Origin: Actinomycetes bacterium
GTDB taxonomy: Bacteria; Actinomycetota; Acidimicrobiia; Acidimicrobiales; Acidimicrobiaceae
DNA length: 64,000 bases
Reading direction: 5' to 3'
Assembly (NCBI GenBank): GCA_021806545.1
Contig: JAJZXI010000001.1
Location: 1-64,000 of the forward strand
Shown here: positions 23,275 through 32,716 of the stretch, one piece after another
How positions within the stretch are numbered: position 1 is the stretch's first letter
Layout of the letters: every line of letters begins with the position of its first letter
Notes under the pieces: model-generated
Seen by the model: the letters and a program-made list of their open reading frames with translations, nothing else
Told to the model about the DNA's origin: nothing
The model's database searches: none
Position numbers and translations under genes: made by a program

Positions 23275-24579
23275 TTAGGCCATCTGCACCAACGCCTGGA
23301 GTACCGAGGCCGTCGTCGAGACCACCTTGGTGTTCGCCTGGTAGGCGGTCTGGGCCAACACGAGATTCGTCAACTCGTTCCCAAGGTTCACATTTGACTC
23401 CTCAACCGATCCACCAACGAACGTGCCACGGCCACCTGTTCCTGCGGTGCCCAGTTGTGCGGCACCCGAGTTCAACGTCGCCTGGTACAGCAGATTCCCT
23501 TGCTTTGCCAACCCTTGCGGGTTCGTGAACATCGCACTCGCGATCTGACCAAGAATCTGCTTGGTTCCATTGGCGTATGTTCCCTGCACGGTTCCGTCCG
23601 AACCGATGCTAAAGCCCGTCAATGCTCCCGAGGCGGCTCCGTCTTGACTCGTGACCGCAAGTGACGACGAATTACCGGCGAACTGAGTGACCGCACCATT
23701 GGAGCCAACTGCTGGGAAGTCAAGGTTCATGGATGGGGTCTTGAGGTTGTAACCGGTGGGAAAGTTACTAAGAGCAAGGTTGTTGGTCCCTGTTGTCGAT
23801 CCTGAGACCGTCTTGACCTGGCCAGTCGTCGAATCAAAGGTGATCGTCTGCGAGGTGGCTCCGCCAAGATCTAAGGGGGTGGTCCCTGGTGGCGTGGTCG
23901 TCGACCCCGGGGTGGGTACCGTTGCCGTTACAGTCCATTGGTTGGCTGTGGTGGTCGATGGCGTGAACGTAAAGGTGATTGGGATTGGGTTCCCCAAGGA
24001 GTCGTAGGCAGTAGTCGTCACCGTCACCGGGCTGGTGGCACCCGCGGCCAAGTTCCCCCCAAGGGTGATGTTCTGTGTCTCGACCGGATTTGCCACCTGA
24101 CCCTGCGGGATCGTGATACCCGTCAGCGGGGCGTTCTGGTTGATCTGGCCATTGGCGCTCGGTGCCCAACCCTGTACAATTGCTCCCGTCGAGGTCACCA
24201 GCTGGCCGGCGGCGTCAAGCTGGAGTGCACCATCGGTGGTGTAGTAGTTCTGTCCACCCTGGTTGACCACGAGAAAACCGTTCCCAGAGATGGCGAGGTC
24301 GGTCGAGACGCCGGTCTGTTGCATCGTTCCTTGTGCGAAGTTGGTGTTGGTGCTGGCTACCCGGACACCCGAGCCAACCACGATCGGGTTGGTGCCACCC
24401 TGGACCCCAACGATCGGCGCTCCGGCGCCCTGGGACTGCTGGTACAACAGATCTGCAAATTGAATCGAGGTCGACTGATAGCCGACCGTATTCGAGTTGG
24501 CAATGTTGTTGGCGATGTTGTCAAGCCACTGCTGATCGGCGTTGATGCCAGTAATGGCTGCTGATAGAGACTTCGTCAT
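23275..24579 (-). CDS. flgE: flagellar hook protein FlgE
   Basis: A 434-residue axial protein. The N terminus has the rod/hook motif ANNIANSNTVGYQS and the C terminus the matching helix (NLGNELTNLVLAQTAYQANTK). The middle forms the Thr/Gly-rich hook domains. It is preceded by flgD and fliK, the usual hook-assembly group. Confidence 0.95.
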   Translation of the reverse strand: MTKSLSAAITGINADQQWLDNIANNIANSNTVGYQSTSIQFADLLYQQSQGAGAPIVGVQGGTNPIVVGSGVRVASTNTNFAQGTMQQTGVSTDLAISGNGFLVVNQGGQNYYTTDGALQLDAAGQLVTSTGAIVQGWAPSANGQINQNAPLTGITIPQGQVANPVETQNITLGGNLAAGATSPVTVTTTAYDSLGNPIPITFTFTPSTTTANQWTVTATVPTPGSTTTPPGTTPLDLGGATSQTITFDSTTGQVKTVSGSTTGTNNLALSNFPTGYNLKTPSMNLDFPAVGSNGAVTQFAGNSSSLAVTSQDGAASGALTGFSIGSDGTVQGTYANGTKQILGQIASAMFTNPQGLAKQGNLLYQATLNSGAAQLGTAGTGGRGTFVGGSVEESNVNLGNELTNLVLAQTAYQANTKVVSTTASVLQALVQMA

Positions 24580-24675: not shown

Positions 24676-25119
24676 TCAGCTACTCGACCCTCCGATCACC
24701 TTGCCAACGGCTGTGACCTGCGAACTCGGTATCGCTAAGCCATTGACGTTGAGATTGAGTCCGCCACTGGTCATGGCGACCCCGGAGACCACGCCACTTC
24801 CCTGTTTGCCACTAGCGGTCGTATAGCTCACCGTCTGGCCGATCAGGCTGGATGCGCTGAGAACTCCCTCTTGAGACTGGAGCGCCTGTAACTCATTGGA
24901 GACGCTGTCGAGCAGCTGTACCATCGATAGGCTCGAGGTCTGCTGCACCATCGCGGTGGGATTCATCGGCGACAAAGGGTTCTGATTCGTCAACTCGGTC
25001 ACCAAAAGTTGGAGAAACTCATTGGAAGATAACGAGGCAATCGAGTTGCTCGAGGTATTGCCGACGCCTGTCGAGCCGGCGGCACCAACGGACCCCACCG
25101 CGCTAATTGGTAACGTCAT
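24676..25119 (-). CDS. flgD: flagellar hook capping protein FlgD
   Basis: A 147-residue scaffolding protein for hook assembly. SNEFLQLLVTELTNQNPLSPM is the FlgD N-terminal signature. At 147 residues it is short: the conserved N-terminal half and a small beta part remain, while longer FlgD proteins add a further Ig-like part. Confidence 0.92.
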   Translation of the reverse strand: MTLPISAVGSVGAAGSTGVGNTSSNSIASLSSNEFLQLLVTELTNQNPLSPMNPTAMVQQTSSLSMVQLLDSVSNELQALQSQEGVLSASSLIGQTVSYTTASGKQGSGVVSGVAMTSGGLNLNVNGLAIPSSQVTAVGKVIGGSSS

Positions 25120-25140: not shown

Positions 25141-26358
25141 TCATAACCGTAGGTCGACCATCGAGTGGCTGACAGAAGGAGTCGGGACGACCTCATGGCC
25201 CGACACGACTCCCACCGCCGGACCTGGCGTCGATGTCTTCGACTGGTCTGCTTGGTTACCTCTGTGTTGCTCACCGAATCCGAGGTCCCGGTTCAGTTGG
25301 TTCGTGAGGTCCGGCAGCTGGGCACTGACCATACCTCGGGTCAAGGGGTCAGCTACTTGAATATGCACCTGGATCTCGCCACCGTTCGAGGTCACTTGGA
25401 GCTGGAGTTGCCCAAGGTCTTTGGGCTCCAGCGCAATGGTGATGGTCCTCGGCAGATTACCCTCTCTGACCACCTGTGCCACTACGGCGCCGAGCTGGCC
25501 AAGGGGCGTGGAGCCGACTGCTTCACCCGTCGTGGCCATCACCGGTGCGGTGGCCAAGGGCGCACTCTGCTGAGCATGCTCCAAGGCTCCGATCGCCGGC
25601 GACTGGTTACTCAATTGGGCGCCGAGGCGTAGTGCTGCACGCTGCCCGACACCAGCCGTGTTCCCCGCTCCGCTGCGGGTGGGTGCGGGCATCAGATTCA
25701 CATCCACAACGGGAGCGTTGGGCACGTGGCTCGGCCTTGCCACTATCGACGGCTTCGTCGGGGCCGCGGTCACTGGGGCAGCGCCTTGTGCACCTTCGGA
25801 GGCGGCGGTGGCGACGGCATTCGAGATCGCGAGCGCCTGGCCCTCACTACCTGGGTGAGAGCGTAGGGCTGTCGAAGGAACCGGCACAGAACTGGTCTGG
25901 CCCTCACTACCTGGGTGAGAGGCCGGCGAGCTCAAGGATATTGGCTCGGGTCGGCTCGGTGCGAGCGCAATCGATCGAGCTGCTTGCCCTCGCTGATCGC
26001 CCACCATCGTAGCGGGCAAGCTCATCTCAGCGCCAGGCGCTGGCGTGGCTGGCTGAATGGCAGCCAGGGAGGGCTTTGGTCGCGATGTTGGCGTTCGAAG
26101 AGTCGCCTCACGGACAGTAGCTTGCGCAGGTCCACCCTCATTGGCCGCAGTGGGTACAGTGGTGGGCACCGTAGGCAGGGGTTGCCTCCGCAGCGCCTGC
26201 TGGTGCAGATGAGCCTGGACCTGTTGAAAGTTTGCGCCCTCCTTTGTCGCACCACCCGAATGACGAGCGTTCTTTCGTCCACTCGATTTGGTCGCGTTGG
26301 CGCGAGACGGCACAACCGCGAGCAACGGTGTGCTGGCAGATTTAGCCACTGGTGACAT
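25141..26358 (-). CDS. fliK: flagellar hook-length control protein FliK
   Basis: A 405-residue secreted ruler protein. About 290 residues of Pro/Ala/Ser-rich low-complexity sequence are followed by the FliK C-terminal domain (TITIALEPKDLGQLQLQV, HIQVADPLTRGMV), which interacts with FlhB. The linker has a repeated HPGSEGQ unit from a 60-base periodic repeat at 25837-25860 and 25897-25920. It overlaps the preceding hydrolase gene by 17 bases. Confidence 0.9.
   Translation of the reverse strand: MSPVAKSASTPLLAVVPSRANATKSSGRKNARHSGGATKEGANFQQVQAHLHQQALRRQPLPTVPTTVPTAANEGGPAQATVREATLRTPTSRPKPSLAAIQPATPAPGAEMSLPATMVGDQRGQAARSIALAPSRPEPISLSSPASHPGSEGQTSSVPVPSTALRSHPGSEGQALAISNAVATAASEGAQGAAPVTAAPTKPSIVARPSHVPNAPVVDVNLMPAPTRSGAGNTAGVGQRAALRLGAQLSNQSPAIGALEHAQQSAPLATAPVMATTGEAVGSTPLGQLGAVVAQVVREGNLPRTITIALEPKDLGQLQLQVTSNGGEIQVHIQVADPLTRGMVSAQLPDLTNQLNRDLGFGEQHRGNQADQSKTSTPGPAVGVVSGHEVVPTPSVSHSMVDLRL
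25837..25920 (-). repeat. 60-bp spaced direct repeat in fliK
   Basis: A 24-base unit occurs identically at 25837-25860 and 25897-25920, exactly 60 bases apart. In frame it repeats the SHPGSEGQ peptide in the FliK linker. Such repeats can change linker length by slippage or recombination. Confidence 0.8.
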
Positions 26359-27457
26359 TTTGGCCTCCCATCAATCCCATGACTTCGTTGACATAGTTCT
26401 GCGTCTGGGCGTAAGGCGGTATCCCACCATACTGCTCGACCGCCCCATCGCCAGCGTTATAGGCGGCCAAGGCAAGCGGTACCGACCCAAATCTCGCCAA
26501 CTTCTGCGAGAGCAGCTCAGCCGCCCCATAGATCGCCTGTGTCGGATCCATCGGGTTGACTCCGAGCGATGCGGCGGTCTGTGGCATGATCTGCATAATT
26601 CCCTCAGCACCCGCCGACGAAACCGCTGAAGGGTTCATTCCCGACTCTGCCGTCGCGACCGAGGCGAGAAGGTTCTGTGGAAGGTGGTAAGCCTGCGTCG
26701 CGGCGGCAAAGACCGGCGCGAGGTTACTCGGAGCGGCGACCGATCCCACCGGCCCATCGGTTGGCGCAACGTTGCGGATCTCAGTTGGAGATCCGACTGG
26801 TTGGATCTGCACCGTCTGGCCGGTTTGCGGTGCGTCGACCATGTAGCCATTGCCAAGATAGATACCAACGTGATACGCCGGGTTCCCGTAGAAGACCAGA
26901 TCACCCGGTTGGGCCTGGGCAAGCGACGCCACTTTAGTCCCCACCTGTTGCTGTTGGTCGGCCACTCTCGGCAGATCGATACCTGCCTGGCCATAGGCCC
27001 ACTGGACCAGGCCCGAGCAGTCAAAGCCGGTTGTAGGCGACGAACCCCCCCAGACGTAGGGGACACCGACCTCCCCGAGTGCATTGGCGAGTGCCTGGGT
27101 AATGGGTGACGGTGTGGAGCCTGAGCTTGGTGCACTGGGGGCGATCGCCGCGGAGGCCGTCAGAGCCGGTGCACTCACGGAAGCGGGCGATGATCCGCCG
27201 GTCACGCCGTTCGCCAGGGGCACGCCAGAGCTGAGTCCTGCCGCGAGTGACGGAGCCGCACTGGTGCCCAAGGTGGCGGAGGTACTCGTCGTCGTCGTTG
27301 CCTTGGGATCGAGAATCGCACCGATCGTCGACTGCACCTGATTCAACGTCTGGAGAAACGCACTCGGGCCATTTGAGGTAACGGTTTGGCTGGCCAACTG
27401 GTTAAAGGCGTTGGAGAGGTCGGTGAGCGCGGGCAGGGTGGAGGGGATTGCGTTCAT
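26342..27457 (-). CDS. flagellar NlpC/P60 endopeptidase-lytic transglycosylase fusion (FlgJ-like role)
   Basis: A 371-residue protein encoded between fliJ and fliK. After a 120-residue Ala/Ser/Thr-rich head it has an NlpC/P60 domain (GVPYVWGGSSPTTGFDCSGL with the catalytic Cys, HVGIYLGNGYMV with the catalytic His), then a soluble lytic transglycosylase domain (ASVATAESGMNPSAVSSAG with catalytic Glu, GIMQIMPQTAASLG, LALAAYNAG). It should cut both peptide and glycan bonds of peptidoglycan. There is no signal peptide, so it may leave through the flagellar export gate as FlgJ does. It overlaps both neighbours, which ties it to flagellar assembly. Confidence 0.88.
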   Translation of the reverse strand: MNAIPSTLPALTDLSNAFNQLASQTVTSNGPSAFLQTLNQVQSTIGAILDPKATTTTSTSATLGTSAAPSLAAGLSSGVPLANGVTGGSSPASVSAPALTASAAIAPSAPSSGSTPSPITQALANALGEVGVPYVWGGSSPTTGFDCSGLVQWAYGQAGIDLPRVADQQQQVGTKVASLAQAQPGDLVFYGNPAYHVGIYLGNGYMVDAPQTGQTVQIQPVGSPTEIRNVAPTDGPVGSVAAPSNLAPVFAAATQAYHLPQNLLASVATAESGMNPSAVSSAGAEGIMQIMPQTAASLGVNPMDPTQAIYGAAELLSQKLARFGSVPLALAAYNAGDGAVEQYGGIPPYAQTQNYVNEVMGLMGGQNVTSG

Positions 27458-27870
27458 ACGTCACCCCGCTCGGATCGGTCAAAGATCTGTCGAGCGACAA
27501 AGAAATCCAGGACCTCAACCAGCTCTCTCCTGTCCTCGATACGGGTAAGTTCGGCGGTTGTTGCCGATCGAAGCTGCTCGAGTGTCCGACGGCGAGCATC
27601 AATCCCGAGCAACACCCTCTCTTGCACTGCGATCGTCTGGAATGCCGCCAACGCGGACTCGCCATGCTCCTGGGCCAACGACAGATGTTCGGGTCCAAGG
27701 GCGCCAAGTTCCGAGCGCGCCTCTACCACGGCTAGATGATCATCCACCGCACGGAGTTCGCTGGCCCGTCGTTCGACCGCCACACGCAACTCGAGCAGAT
27801 GTCCCCATCGTTCGATCTCTTGCATTCGCAGGAGCAGCGTGAGTGCCCTACGCCGTCCTAGGAGGTTCAT
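27454..27870 (-). CDS. fliJ: flagellar export chaperone FliJ
   Basis: A 138-residue, highly charged, helical coiled-coil protein between fliI and the hydrolase gene. FliJ proteins are weakly conserved in sequence; identification rests on the coiled-coil composition, length and position after fliI. FliJ couples the FliI ATPase to FlhA. Confidence 0.82.
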   Translation of the reverse strand: MNLLGRRRALTLLLRMQEIERWGHLLELRVAVERRASELRAVDDHLAVVEARSELGALGPEHLSLAQEHGESALAAFQTIAVQERVLLGIDARRRTLEQLRSATTAELTRIEDRRELVEVLDFFVARQIFDRSERGDV

Positions 27871-29177
27871 GGCGTGACTCCCAGTGCCTGAGACAGTCTC
27901 GCCCAGGTCGTATCCGCAGGGGTGAGCTCCATCAGGTCCTGTGCGAACAGCTGCGTGAGGCGAGGAACCAGCGCGAGAGCTCGGTCCACGTTGGGATTCG
28001 AACCCGCTACGTAGGCGCCCAAGTCGATAAGGTCGCGTACCTGATCGAGCTCGGCAAAGAGACGCCGAGCCTCATGTGCAAGTGCACGTTTGGGTTCATC
28101 GAGGATAGCGGTCTCAAGTCGTGATATCGACTCGAGCACGGACACTGCCGGGTAGAGACCCCGTTGGGCCTGTGCACGACTCAAGACGATATGGCCGTCG
28201 AGCACGGAACGGGCGGAGTCGGCGATCGGATCGTTCAAGTCGTCGCCATCGACCAGGACCGAGTAGATACCCGTGATGCTACCAAGACTCGAAGTCCCTG
28301 CCCGCTCCAAGAGCCGCGCCATGAGCGCAAAGACCGACGGTGGATAACCGCGGACGCTCGGTGGCTCGCCCGCCGAGAGCCCGATCTCGCGCTGTGCCAA
28401 GCCGAGGCGGGTCAGCGAATCCATCACCAACAACACACGCTTTCCTTGATCCCGGAACCACTCGGCGACACGGGTGGCCGCCAGCGCCGCTCGCACGCGC
28501 AGCAGCGGTGGTGCATCGGAGGTTGCCACGACAATTGCGGCTTTGGCGAGCCCCTCAGGACCGAGGTCGTGCTCGAGAAACTCCTTGACCTCGCGGCCTC
28601 GCTCACCGACGAGCGCCAACACGATCACATCGACATCGGCTCCGCGAATCATCATGGACAATAGCGACGATTTGCCAACACCTGCACCGGCAAAAACTCC
28701 GAGCCGCTGACCAATACCACACGGCACCAGCGCATCGATAACCCGAATTCCGAGGGAGAGCTGCTCATCGATCAAGCTCCGATCCATAGGGGATGGCGCA
28801 CGACCCTCGATAACGACGAGGTCATCGGGTGTGAGCGGTCCAAGTTGATCAATCGGACGTCCTTCGGAATCGAGCACACGGCCGAGCAGCGCTGGACCGA
28901 CGGGGAACAGTGGCGGGCGTTTGAGCGACCACGCGGGGTTCCCATACCGGACACCCGTCATCTCCTTGAAGGGCATACAGATCAGTCGCTGGTTGTCGAG
29001 GCCAACCACCTCGGCGATCAAGGTCTTCGATCCCCCGAGATCGACTACGACCGCATCCCCGATGCCGGCCTCCACCCCTTCTACCTCGAGATGCATCCCG
29101 ACCAACCGACACACTCGTCCTCGCGGAGTGGGTTCCACCACCGAGAGCAGGCGCTCACGCATCACCTCAGGAATCAT
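27867..29177 (-). CDS. fliI: flagellum-specific ATPase FliI
   Basis: A 436-residue ATPase of the type III secretion family related to F1-beta. Walker A is GAGVGKSSLL, Walker B VLLVMDSLTRLG, and LALVGERGREVKEF follows. It powers and organises delivery of export substrates together with FliH and FliJ. It overlaps fliH by 11 bases. Confidence 0.96.
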   Translation of the reverse strand: MIPEVMRERLLSVVEPTPRGRVCRLVGMHLEVEGVEAGIGDAVVVDLGGSKTLIAEVVGLDNQRLICMPFKEMTGVRYGNPAWSLKRPPLFPVGPALLGRVLDSEGRPIDQLGPLTPDDLVVIEGRAPSPMDRSLIDEQLSLGIRVIDALVPCGIGQRLGVFAGAGVGKSSLLSMMIRGADVDVIVLALVGERGREVKEFLEHDLGPEGLAKAAIVVATSDAPPLLRVRAALAATRVAEWFRDQGKRVLLVMDSLTRLGLAQREIGLSAGEPPSVRGYPPSVFALMARLLERAGTSSLGSITGIYSVLVDGDDLNDPIADSARSVLDGHIVLSRAQAQRGLYPAVSVLESISRLETAILDEPKRALAHEARRLFAELDQVRDLIDLGAYVAGSNPNVDRALALVPRLTQLFAQDLMELTPADTTWARLSQALGVTP

Positions 29178-32410: not shown

Positions 32411-32716
32411 CTAGAACTGCGTGGACATCACTTGGTTGATTGCGCTGACCGCTCCGTTGCGCAGCGCAACCACGAGCTGGGTAGCGAGTAACGACTCACT
32501 GGAAGCAACCATGGCATTACTCAGGTTCGCCTGGCCGGTCGCCACTTGCTGAGCCTGAGTAGCCGCTGTCGCCTGCGTACCTTGCAAGGAGTCGATAGCC
32601 TTCCCTAGAATCTGTCCGAACGAACTGGTTCCAGTAGAGGCGCTTGGGGTGCTCGAGCCGATAGGAGGCAAGGTGGCCCCAAAACTCGAGGAGATCGCGC
32701 CGATCGCGGGAATCAT
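32411..32716 (-). CDS. fliE: flagellar hook-basal body protein FliE
   Basis: A 101-residue protein joining the MS ring to the rod. The helical C-terminal half (ANLSNAMVASSESLLATQL) is the family core. Its ATG overlaps the flgC stop. Confidence 0.92.
   Translation of the reverse strand: MIPAIGAISSSFGATLPPIGSSTPSASTGTSSFGQILGKAIDSLQGTQATAATQAQQVATGQANLSNAMVASSESLLATQLVVALRNGAVSAINQVMSTQF

Follow-up and report, generated by a model that had tools for sequence, protein, structure and literature searches.

A putative flagellum-exported peptidoglycan hydrolase encoded between fliJ and fliK in Actinobacteria

Introduction

How does a growing flagellar rod pass through a thick peptidoglycan wall in bacteria that lack the rod-binding domain of FlgJ, the flagellar peptidoglycan hydrolase that cuts the wall for the rod in Salmonella and E. 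coli? A survey of actinobacterial flagella reported that FlgJ and FlgFG are missing in three later classes, and the available part of its text left open how so simple a rod assembles in thick peptidoglycan (PMC10746217). The question is raised here by a stretch of 64,000 nucleotides from the genome of a member of the Acidimicrobiaceae (assembly GCA_021806545.1, contig JAJZXI010000001.1, positions 1 to 64,000), referred to as the window; the whole genome is referred to as G000. Its flagellar operon contains a gene for a wall-cutting enzyme in the slot between the genes for the export apparatus and those for the hook. We analyzed this gene, its neighborhood and its counterparts in other genomes.

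Results

A two-domain hydrolase overlaps its flagellar neighbors

The slot gene lies on the minus strand at 26342..27457 (read 27457→26342), starts with ATG and encodes 371 amino acids; the initial annotation had named no strand, and the plus-strand reading of 26342-27457 contains several stops. That annotation proposed an NlpC/P60 peptidase joined to an SLT (soluble lytic transglycosylase) domain, and Pfam indeed found both in one protein with strong E-values: NLPC_P60 at residues 131-222 (26792..27067, minus strand; E 1.4e-28) and SLT (PF01464) at residues 250-347 (26414..26713, minus strand; E 1.8e-25). The NlpC/P60 part matches PF00877 and contains the predicted catalytic residues Cys147, the only cysteine in the protein, and His196. 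SLT lytic transglycosylases are recognized by a catalytic glutamate within an E-S motif and by an A-Y-N-A-G motif, and the SLT part has both, E271-S and AYNAG. The predicted structure (mean pLDDT 62.8, pTM 0.42) added little beyond the NlpC fold, and the SLT part was weakly modelled from an alignment of 10 rows.

The gene also overlaps both of its neighbors, as had been proposed. All genes of this region lie on the minus strand. The start codon overlaps the stop of the fliJ-position gene (27454..27870) by 4 nt (ATGA); this gene was named by position and matches no Pfam or NCBIfam family, and it follows fliI, which encodes the export ATPase (27867..29177, Pfam). At the other end, the hydrolase gene overlaps by 17 nt with fliK, the gene for hook-length control (25141..26358, Flg_hook PF02120), which is followed by flgD, encoding the hook cap (24676..25119, Pfam), and by a flgE-like hook gene (23275..24579), assigned from its sequence and its place after flgD; its product served as the FlgE query of the search model. 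A low-complexity part of fliK contains two copies of the 25-base sequence ctggccctcactacctgggtgagag, 60 bases apart (window 25837-25921).

In a profile search of the whole of G000 (2.42 Mb, 161 contigs, 95.5% complete), the flagellar slot protein was the only SLT match and the only NlpC/P60 match. Such a single complement is odd for an actinobacterium and may reflect an assembly gap: a second NlpC/P60 protein could be absent from the assembly, because several genomes of the same genus have one.

The slot is occupied across the phylum

Flagellar loci were located by FliI, which was found in 58 of 396 phylum genomes and 64 of 298 genomes of the window's order. From part of all FliI matches we examined 100 stretches representing 99 distinct genomes (G220 contributed two); 90 of these genomes were chosen by FliI alone, and the other nine (L218-L226) came from a hydrolase search of the family and are therefore biased. 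An open reading frame with SLT and/or NlpC/P60 lay between fliI-fliJ and fliK-flgD in 92 of the 99 genomes. Among those chosen by FliI the figure was 83 of 90, with the gene directly after fliJ (two of the 83 being 60-amino-acid remnants), and two further genomes (G329 and G218) have an SLT gene with a similar head directly before fliK-flgD-flgE elsewhere (L308, L309). Conservation of the gene in this place, which had been set as a check on the initial annotation, is borne out by these counts. The 4-nt ATGA overlap with fliJ recurs in 51 of 92 slot genes. A close homolog of the window protein is encoded in Ferrithrix thermotolerans DSM 19514 (L035). The window gene is one case of a phylum-wide arrangement in Actinobacteria. 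The same scan found no SLT or NlpC open reading frame in the slot of 39 Bacillota loci, in 37 of which FliK was seen (FliI was present in 128 of 149 genomes sampled, 39 were examined, and L373, a second stretch of G803, was left out). A large frame of G329 also encodes another, distinct NlpC+SLT protein, in a locus that matched no flagellar model (L301).

The remaining stretches vary. In L166 the gene is cut by the contig end and its head matches; L141 ends soon after fliJ, and L146 was left undecided. In L153 and L171, the hook genes come after fliJ with no hydrolase in between. In L149 and L154 (G020, G060) the slot gene encodes only about 60 residues, consisting of the head and the last part of SLT, with the catalytic core gone; this remnant may represent decay or a head-only protein that has been kept, and the closely related L140 and L148 keep the full gene. 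The hydrolase is not indispensable everywhere, because it is absent in L153 and L171 and reduced to a remnant in L149 and L154.

The catalytic part changes while its active sites are kept

We assigned domain states with profile models built for this analysis, ten examples of which were checked by Pfam. Across the 99 genomes, the slot holds NlpC+SLT in 51, SLT alone in 29 (including two genes outside the fliI slot and L215, truncated at the edge of its contig), NlpC alone in six and the reversed order SLT+NlpC in three; SLT joined to FliK occurs in three, a remnant in two and nothing in two, with three undecided. NlpC+SLT prevails in the window's order (46 of 58 genomes, nine of them biased), and SLT alone prevails elsewhere in the phylum (21 of 41). 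Many relatives thus have SLT or NlpC/P60 alone, and the double-domain form was rejected as the needed form. No SLT match was found anywhere in the genomes of five NlpC-alone representatives (f29; 0/5).

On a FliI tree, a quick IQ-TREE reconstruction of 100 rows with 43 of 97 inner branches starred and giving no direction of change, the catalytic states require at least 17 changes compared with 39.7 when shuffled; presence of NlpC changes at least 10 times and presence of SLT at least twice. The SLT E-S motif is kept in all 84 full slot domains (two remnants set aside), and the NlpC cysteine motif in 59 of 60 slot NlpC domains. The exception is the L210 protein (G454), in which the NlpC/P60 catalytic cysteine is lost and SLT is intact.

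The FlgJ rod-binding domain is missing from the genomes searched in the window's order

The rod-binding domain PF10135 matched neither the slot protein (Pfam) nor any part of G000, with E. coli, Caulobacter and Thermotoga controls positive, and it was absent in all 39 other genomes of the window's order that were searched. The survey likewise reports, in its available text, that later classes of Actinobacteria have lost FlgJ (PMC10746217). Among 80 genomes searched (19 of the 99 were left out), nine had a PF10135 match, seven of them over the cut-off and all outside the window's order. In three stretches (L270, L272 and L273, f28) the FlgJ-like rod-binding protein is short, consists of a single domain and has no hydrolase part. 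Five of the nine FlgJ-match genomes (G003, G208, G303, G295 and G047) also have a slot hydrolase, so the slot protein is not simply an alternative to FlgJ; together with G218, which combines a FlgJ match with the hydrolase before fliK, they indicate that one genome can have both a cap and a cutter, each as its own protein. The glucosaminidase domain PF01832 was not among the Pfam matches of the slot protein up to E 0.1, and with PF10135 and PF01832 both missing, membership of the FlgJ family was rejected.

The head has the layout of early flagellar export signals

The initial annotation described a 120-residue unstructured head that might serve as an export signal. Disorder fits residues 51-115 (27113..27307, minus strand), a low-complexity stretch with pLDDT <50 in the predicted model that is probably a linker, and does not fit residues 4-23 and 30-49, where helices are predicted at low confidence (block pLDDT about 49-65). 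As to export, it is the first ~50 residues that resemble an early-export signal, with the remaining head as a linker. According to the available text of PMC8983047, early export signals in Salmonella consist of a small non-polar N-terminal stretch and, separated from it by no fewer than 19 residues, a gate recognition motif; FlgD has 2-SIAV-5 and 36-FLTLL-40, and the motif of FlgE lies at residues 39-43 (the latter also in the part of PMC10936197 available). The window protein follows this layout of a non-polar N-terminus and a motif near residue 36-43. Residues 1-23 (27389..27457, minus strand) include the small non-polar A3-I4 and form, by comparison with PMC8983047, a proposed gate-opening signal, and 34-FLQTL-38 (27344..27358, minus strand) is a gate-recognition-like motif of the form F-x-x-x-hydrophobic. 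The presence of the motif alone does not prove export.

We scanned 83 heads, namely the window protein and 82 of the 92 slot proteins; left out were seven without a decided start, the remnants L149 and L154, and L208, whose start is misplaced. Using regular expressions and shuffles that ignore kinship, the strict motif F..[AVILMFT][LMIVF] was found at residues 24-60 in 68 of 83 heads (shuffled 6.6±2.3) and from residue 11 on in 74 of 83 (shuffled 14.1±3.1), at a median position of 38 (quartiles 34-45). The strict test at 24-60 also identified exported proteins, with 71 of 87 FlgD and 14 of 21 FliE sequences positive, compared with 0 of 100 FliI (one genome counted twice), 5 of 89 FliJ and 3 of 20 Sec-type NlpC paralogs, the last being a rough control because some starts are doubtful (L235, L236, L240). 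The looser F...[LMIV] at 20-65 occurred in 77 of 83 heads (shuffled 16.1±3.4), and in 62 of 68 once similar heads had been removed, the remaining heads being dissimilar outside the motif. Heads without the motif numbered 15 of 83 under the strict test at 24-60 and six of 83 under the loose test at 20-65; nine have no strict motif anywhere, most of these having F-x-x-x-L with a polar fourth residue. Heads vary strongly, and their recurring elements are a non-polar, often R-I-x-x-I-like start and the phenylalanine motif, around which the consensus reads S/D-F-A-x-V/A/L-L-A-x-A. Chance occurrence of the motif was rejected on the basis of the shuffles and control sets, and a conserved head at a conserved position, a further expectation attached to the export proposal, was recovered in this form.

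The first rod protein of the window, FliE (fliE, 32411..32716, minus strand; Pfam), has its own motif, F33-G-Q-I-L, at nearly the same place as that of the hydrolase. This likeness leads to a different reading, in which the protein leaves through the gate and is retained as a part of the rod tip or hook base, the head docking, in the manner of FliE or FlgJ, on the growing rod and holding the hydrolase on a tether. The head layout of actinobacterial FliE (a non-polar start and F..hL near residue 33), the two helices predicted in the head and the lack of a FlgJ rod-binding domain in G000 would all suit such a part. We nevertheless consider it unlikely, since the head matches no FliE, FlgJ or rod family in Pfam or NCBIfam and is hardly conserved outside its two motifs, and the confidence of the helices is low.

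No room for a Sec signal, and fusions to FliK

Only one codon (R) separates the ATG from the previous in-frame stop, so a longer N-terminus with a Sec signal is impossible, and an upstream Sec signal was ruled out. The most hydrophobic 12-mer within residues 1-50 of the protein averages 0.88 on the Kyte-Doolittle scale, compared with a median of 1.86 for NlpC paralogs from the family, among which a Sec signal is often visible. The slot hydrolase therefore lacks an N-terminal Sec signal of the SltF type, in line with the absence of a signal peptide noted initially.

In three stretches (L213, L216 and L217, from G467, G538 and G675 in two families) a single open frame encodes the head, then SLT, a linker and Flg_hook, and this fused Flg_hook is the only Flg_hook match in each of the three genomes. 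G565 has one Flg_hook in a 499-amino-acid frame near fliI and another elsewhere, and in G588 and G610 contig ends interrupt the corresponding regions. FliK itself belongs to the early substrates that are secreted (PMC8983047 and PMC10936197, available text). If the fusion works, the hydrolase domain must therefore travel with FliK, and we regard the SLT-FliK fusion as the strongest single argument that the slot hydrolase may be exported through the flagellar gate.

The fusions also count against the idea that the enzyme takes another exit (a weak Sec signal, non-classical secretion or lysis) and sits in the operon only so as to be expressed along with the flagella. The flagellar transglycosylases SltF (PMC7277832) and BB0259 (PMC8517470) do use Sec, according to the available text of both papers; for the slot protein, this route is improbable, given the lack of in-frame room for a longer N-terminus, the low hydrophobicity of the heads, a head motif at the position of the gate recognition motif, and the fusions themselves. 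Very improbable is a head that serves as a docking site for FliJ, FliI or another cytoplasmic partner, with the enzyme as a regulator or acting only after release: translational coupling with fliJ and the R-I-x-x-I-like N-terminal element of many relatives, not seen in the FliE set, would fit it, but the catalytic residues, which need a substrate outside the membrane, are kept almost everywhere, and the motif corresponds to the one found in early proteins that are exported.

Discussion

The gene, its domains and catalytic residues, its position, the head motif, the missing Sec signal and FlgJ rod-binding domain, and the three fusions are seen in the sequence itself. We propose that the slot gene encodes a dedicated flagellar peptidoglycan hydrolase, which probably leaves the cell via the flagellar type III gate, as one of the early substrates of the rod and hook class. 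Since it has no Sec signal and has a conserved head like that of flagellum-exported proteins, it is probably a tool for passing the growing flagellum through the thick wall.

From these features we infer docking, export, refolding, activity, timing and place of action as follows. The hydrolase would be co-translated with fliJ and fliK; the head would dock on FlhB via the FLQTL motif, and the N-terminal non-polar stretch would trigger the gate. It could then pass unfolded through the growing rod, a passage compatible with its single cysteine, which allows no disulfide, and would refold at the rod tip under the wall. There, SLT would cut glycan strands and NlpC/P60 would cut stem peptides, opening a local hole for a rod without FlgJ. 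The slot gene would thus offer a concrete and testable answer to rod assembly in thick peptidoglycan, with the hydrolase delivered to the flagellum's own tip. Delivery through the gate would also prevent the dispersal of a lytic enzyme across the entire envelope, a problem named for the Sec-exported SltF in the available text of PMC7277832.

That one head is combined repeatedly with different catalytic parts suggests that the export signal is portable, and the fusions of SLT with FliK could provide a naturally occurring test of what the flagellar gate of Gram-positive bacteria accepts as cargo. In a broader and more tentative interpretation, to which we give somewhat less than even chances, Actinobacteria replaced or supplemented FlgJ with a modular flagellum-exported cutter, in which one early-export head stayed in the fliJ-fliK slot and its catalytic partner was exchanged at least 17 times. 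The cutter would in some lineages have merged with FliK, giving one polypeptide that opens the wall and measures the hook and possibly couples passage through the wall to the transition from rod to hook or from hook to filament.

Flagellar hydrolases are already known, including one counted as a type III substrate: FlgJ is listed among early export substrates in the available part of PMC10936197. FlgJ combines a rod-binding domain with a glucosaminidase, whereas the slot protein has NlpC/P60 and/or SLT behind a short gate-type signal. No title in the part of the literature that was searched describes a flagellum-exported NlpC/SLT protein or a fusion of SLT with FliK. Within that scope, the new elements would be an NlpC/P60 class in this role, an export-type head instead of a rod-cap domain, a slot that is occupied across the phylum while its catalytic parts vary, and the joining of SLT to FliK. 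SLT lytic transglycosylases dedicated to flagella are also known from Rhodobacter sphaeroides (SltF) and Borrelia (BB0259); the BB0259_flg_lyt model matched the SLT part at E 4.2e-14, with a score of 52 bits that falls well short of its 234-bit cut-off. Both have Sec-type signals and are described as working with FlgJ in the available text (PMC7277832, PMC8517470), whereas the slot protein has no Sec signal and G000 no FlgJ rod-binding domain.

The slot protein also resembles CwlQ of Bacillus subtilis in being a Gram-positive wall enzyme linked with flagella. CwlQ is reportedly needed for swarming and not for flagellar assembly. The two differ in setting, as the Bacillota slot contained no SLT or NlpC gene in the loci scanned. 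CwlQ was among the queries of the actinobacterial survey, whose Fig. 3A and supplements may count some slot genes as CwlQ; its available text uses none of the words 'hydrolase', 'transglycosylase' and 'NlpC', and names Actinoplanes missouriensis as the one actinobacterium whose flagella have been studied genetically (PMC10746217). Speaking against a cutting role, a published model for B. subtilis holds that rods find holes and do not cut them (PMC12153297, available text).

Among actinobacterial enzymes, the RipA/RipB/RipC-type NlpC/P60 endopeptidases share the NlpC/P60 sequence and fold with the slot protein, but none of their models passes its curated cut-off on it. RipA, RipB and RipC are not known to have an SLT domain and are Sec-secreted. 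Matches of the slot protein in PHROGs were to phage lysins and tail hydrolases, at the level of domains only.
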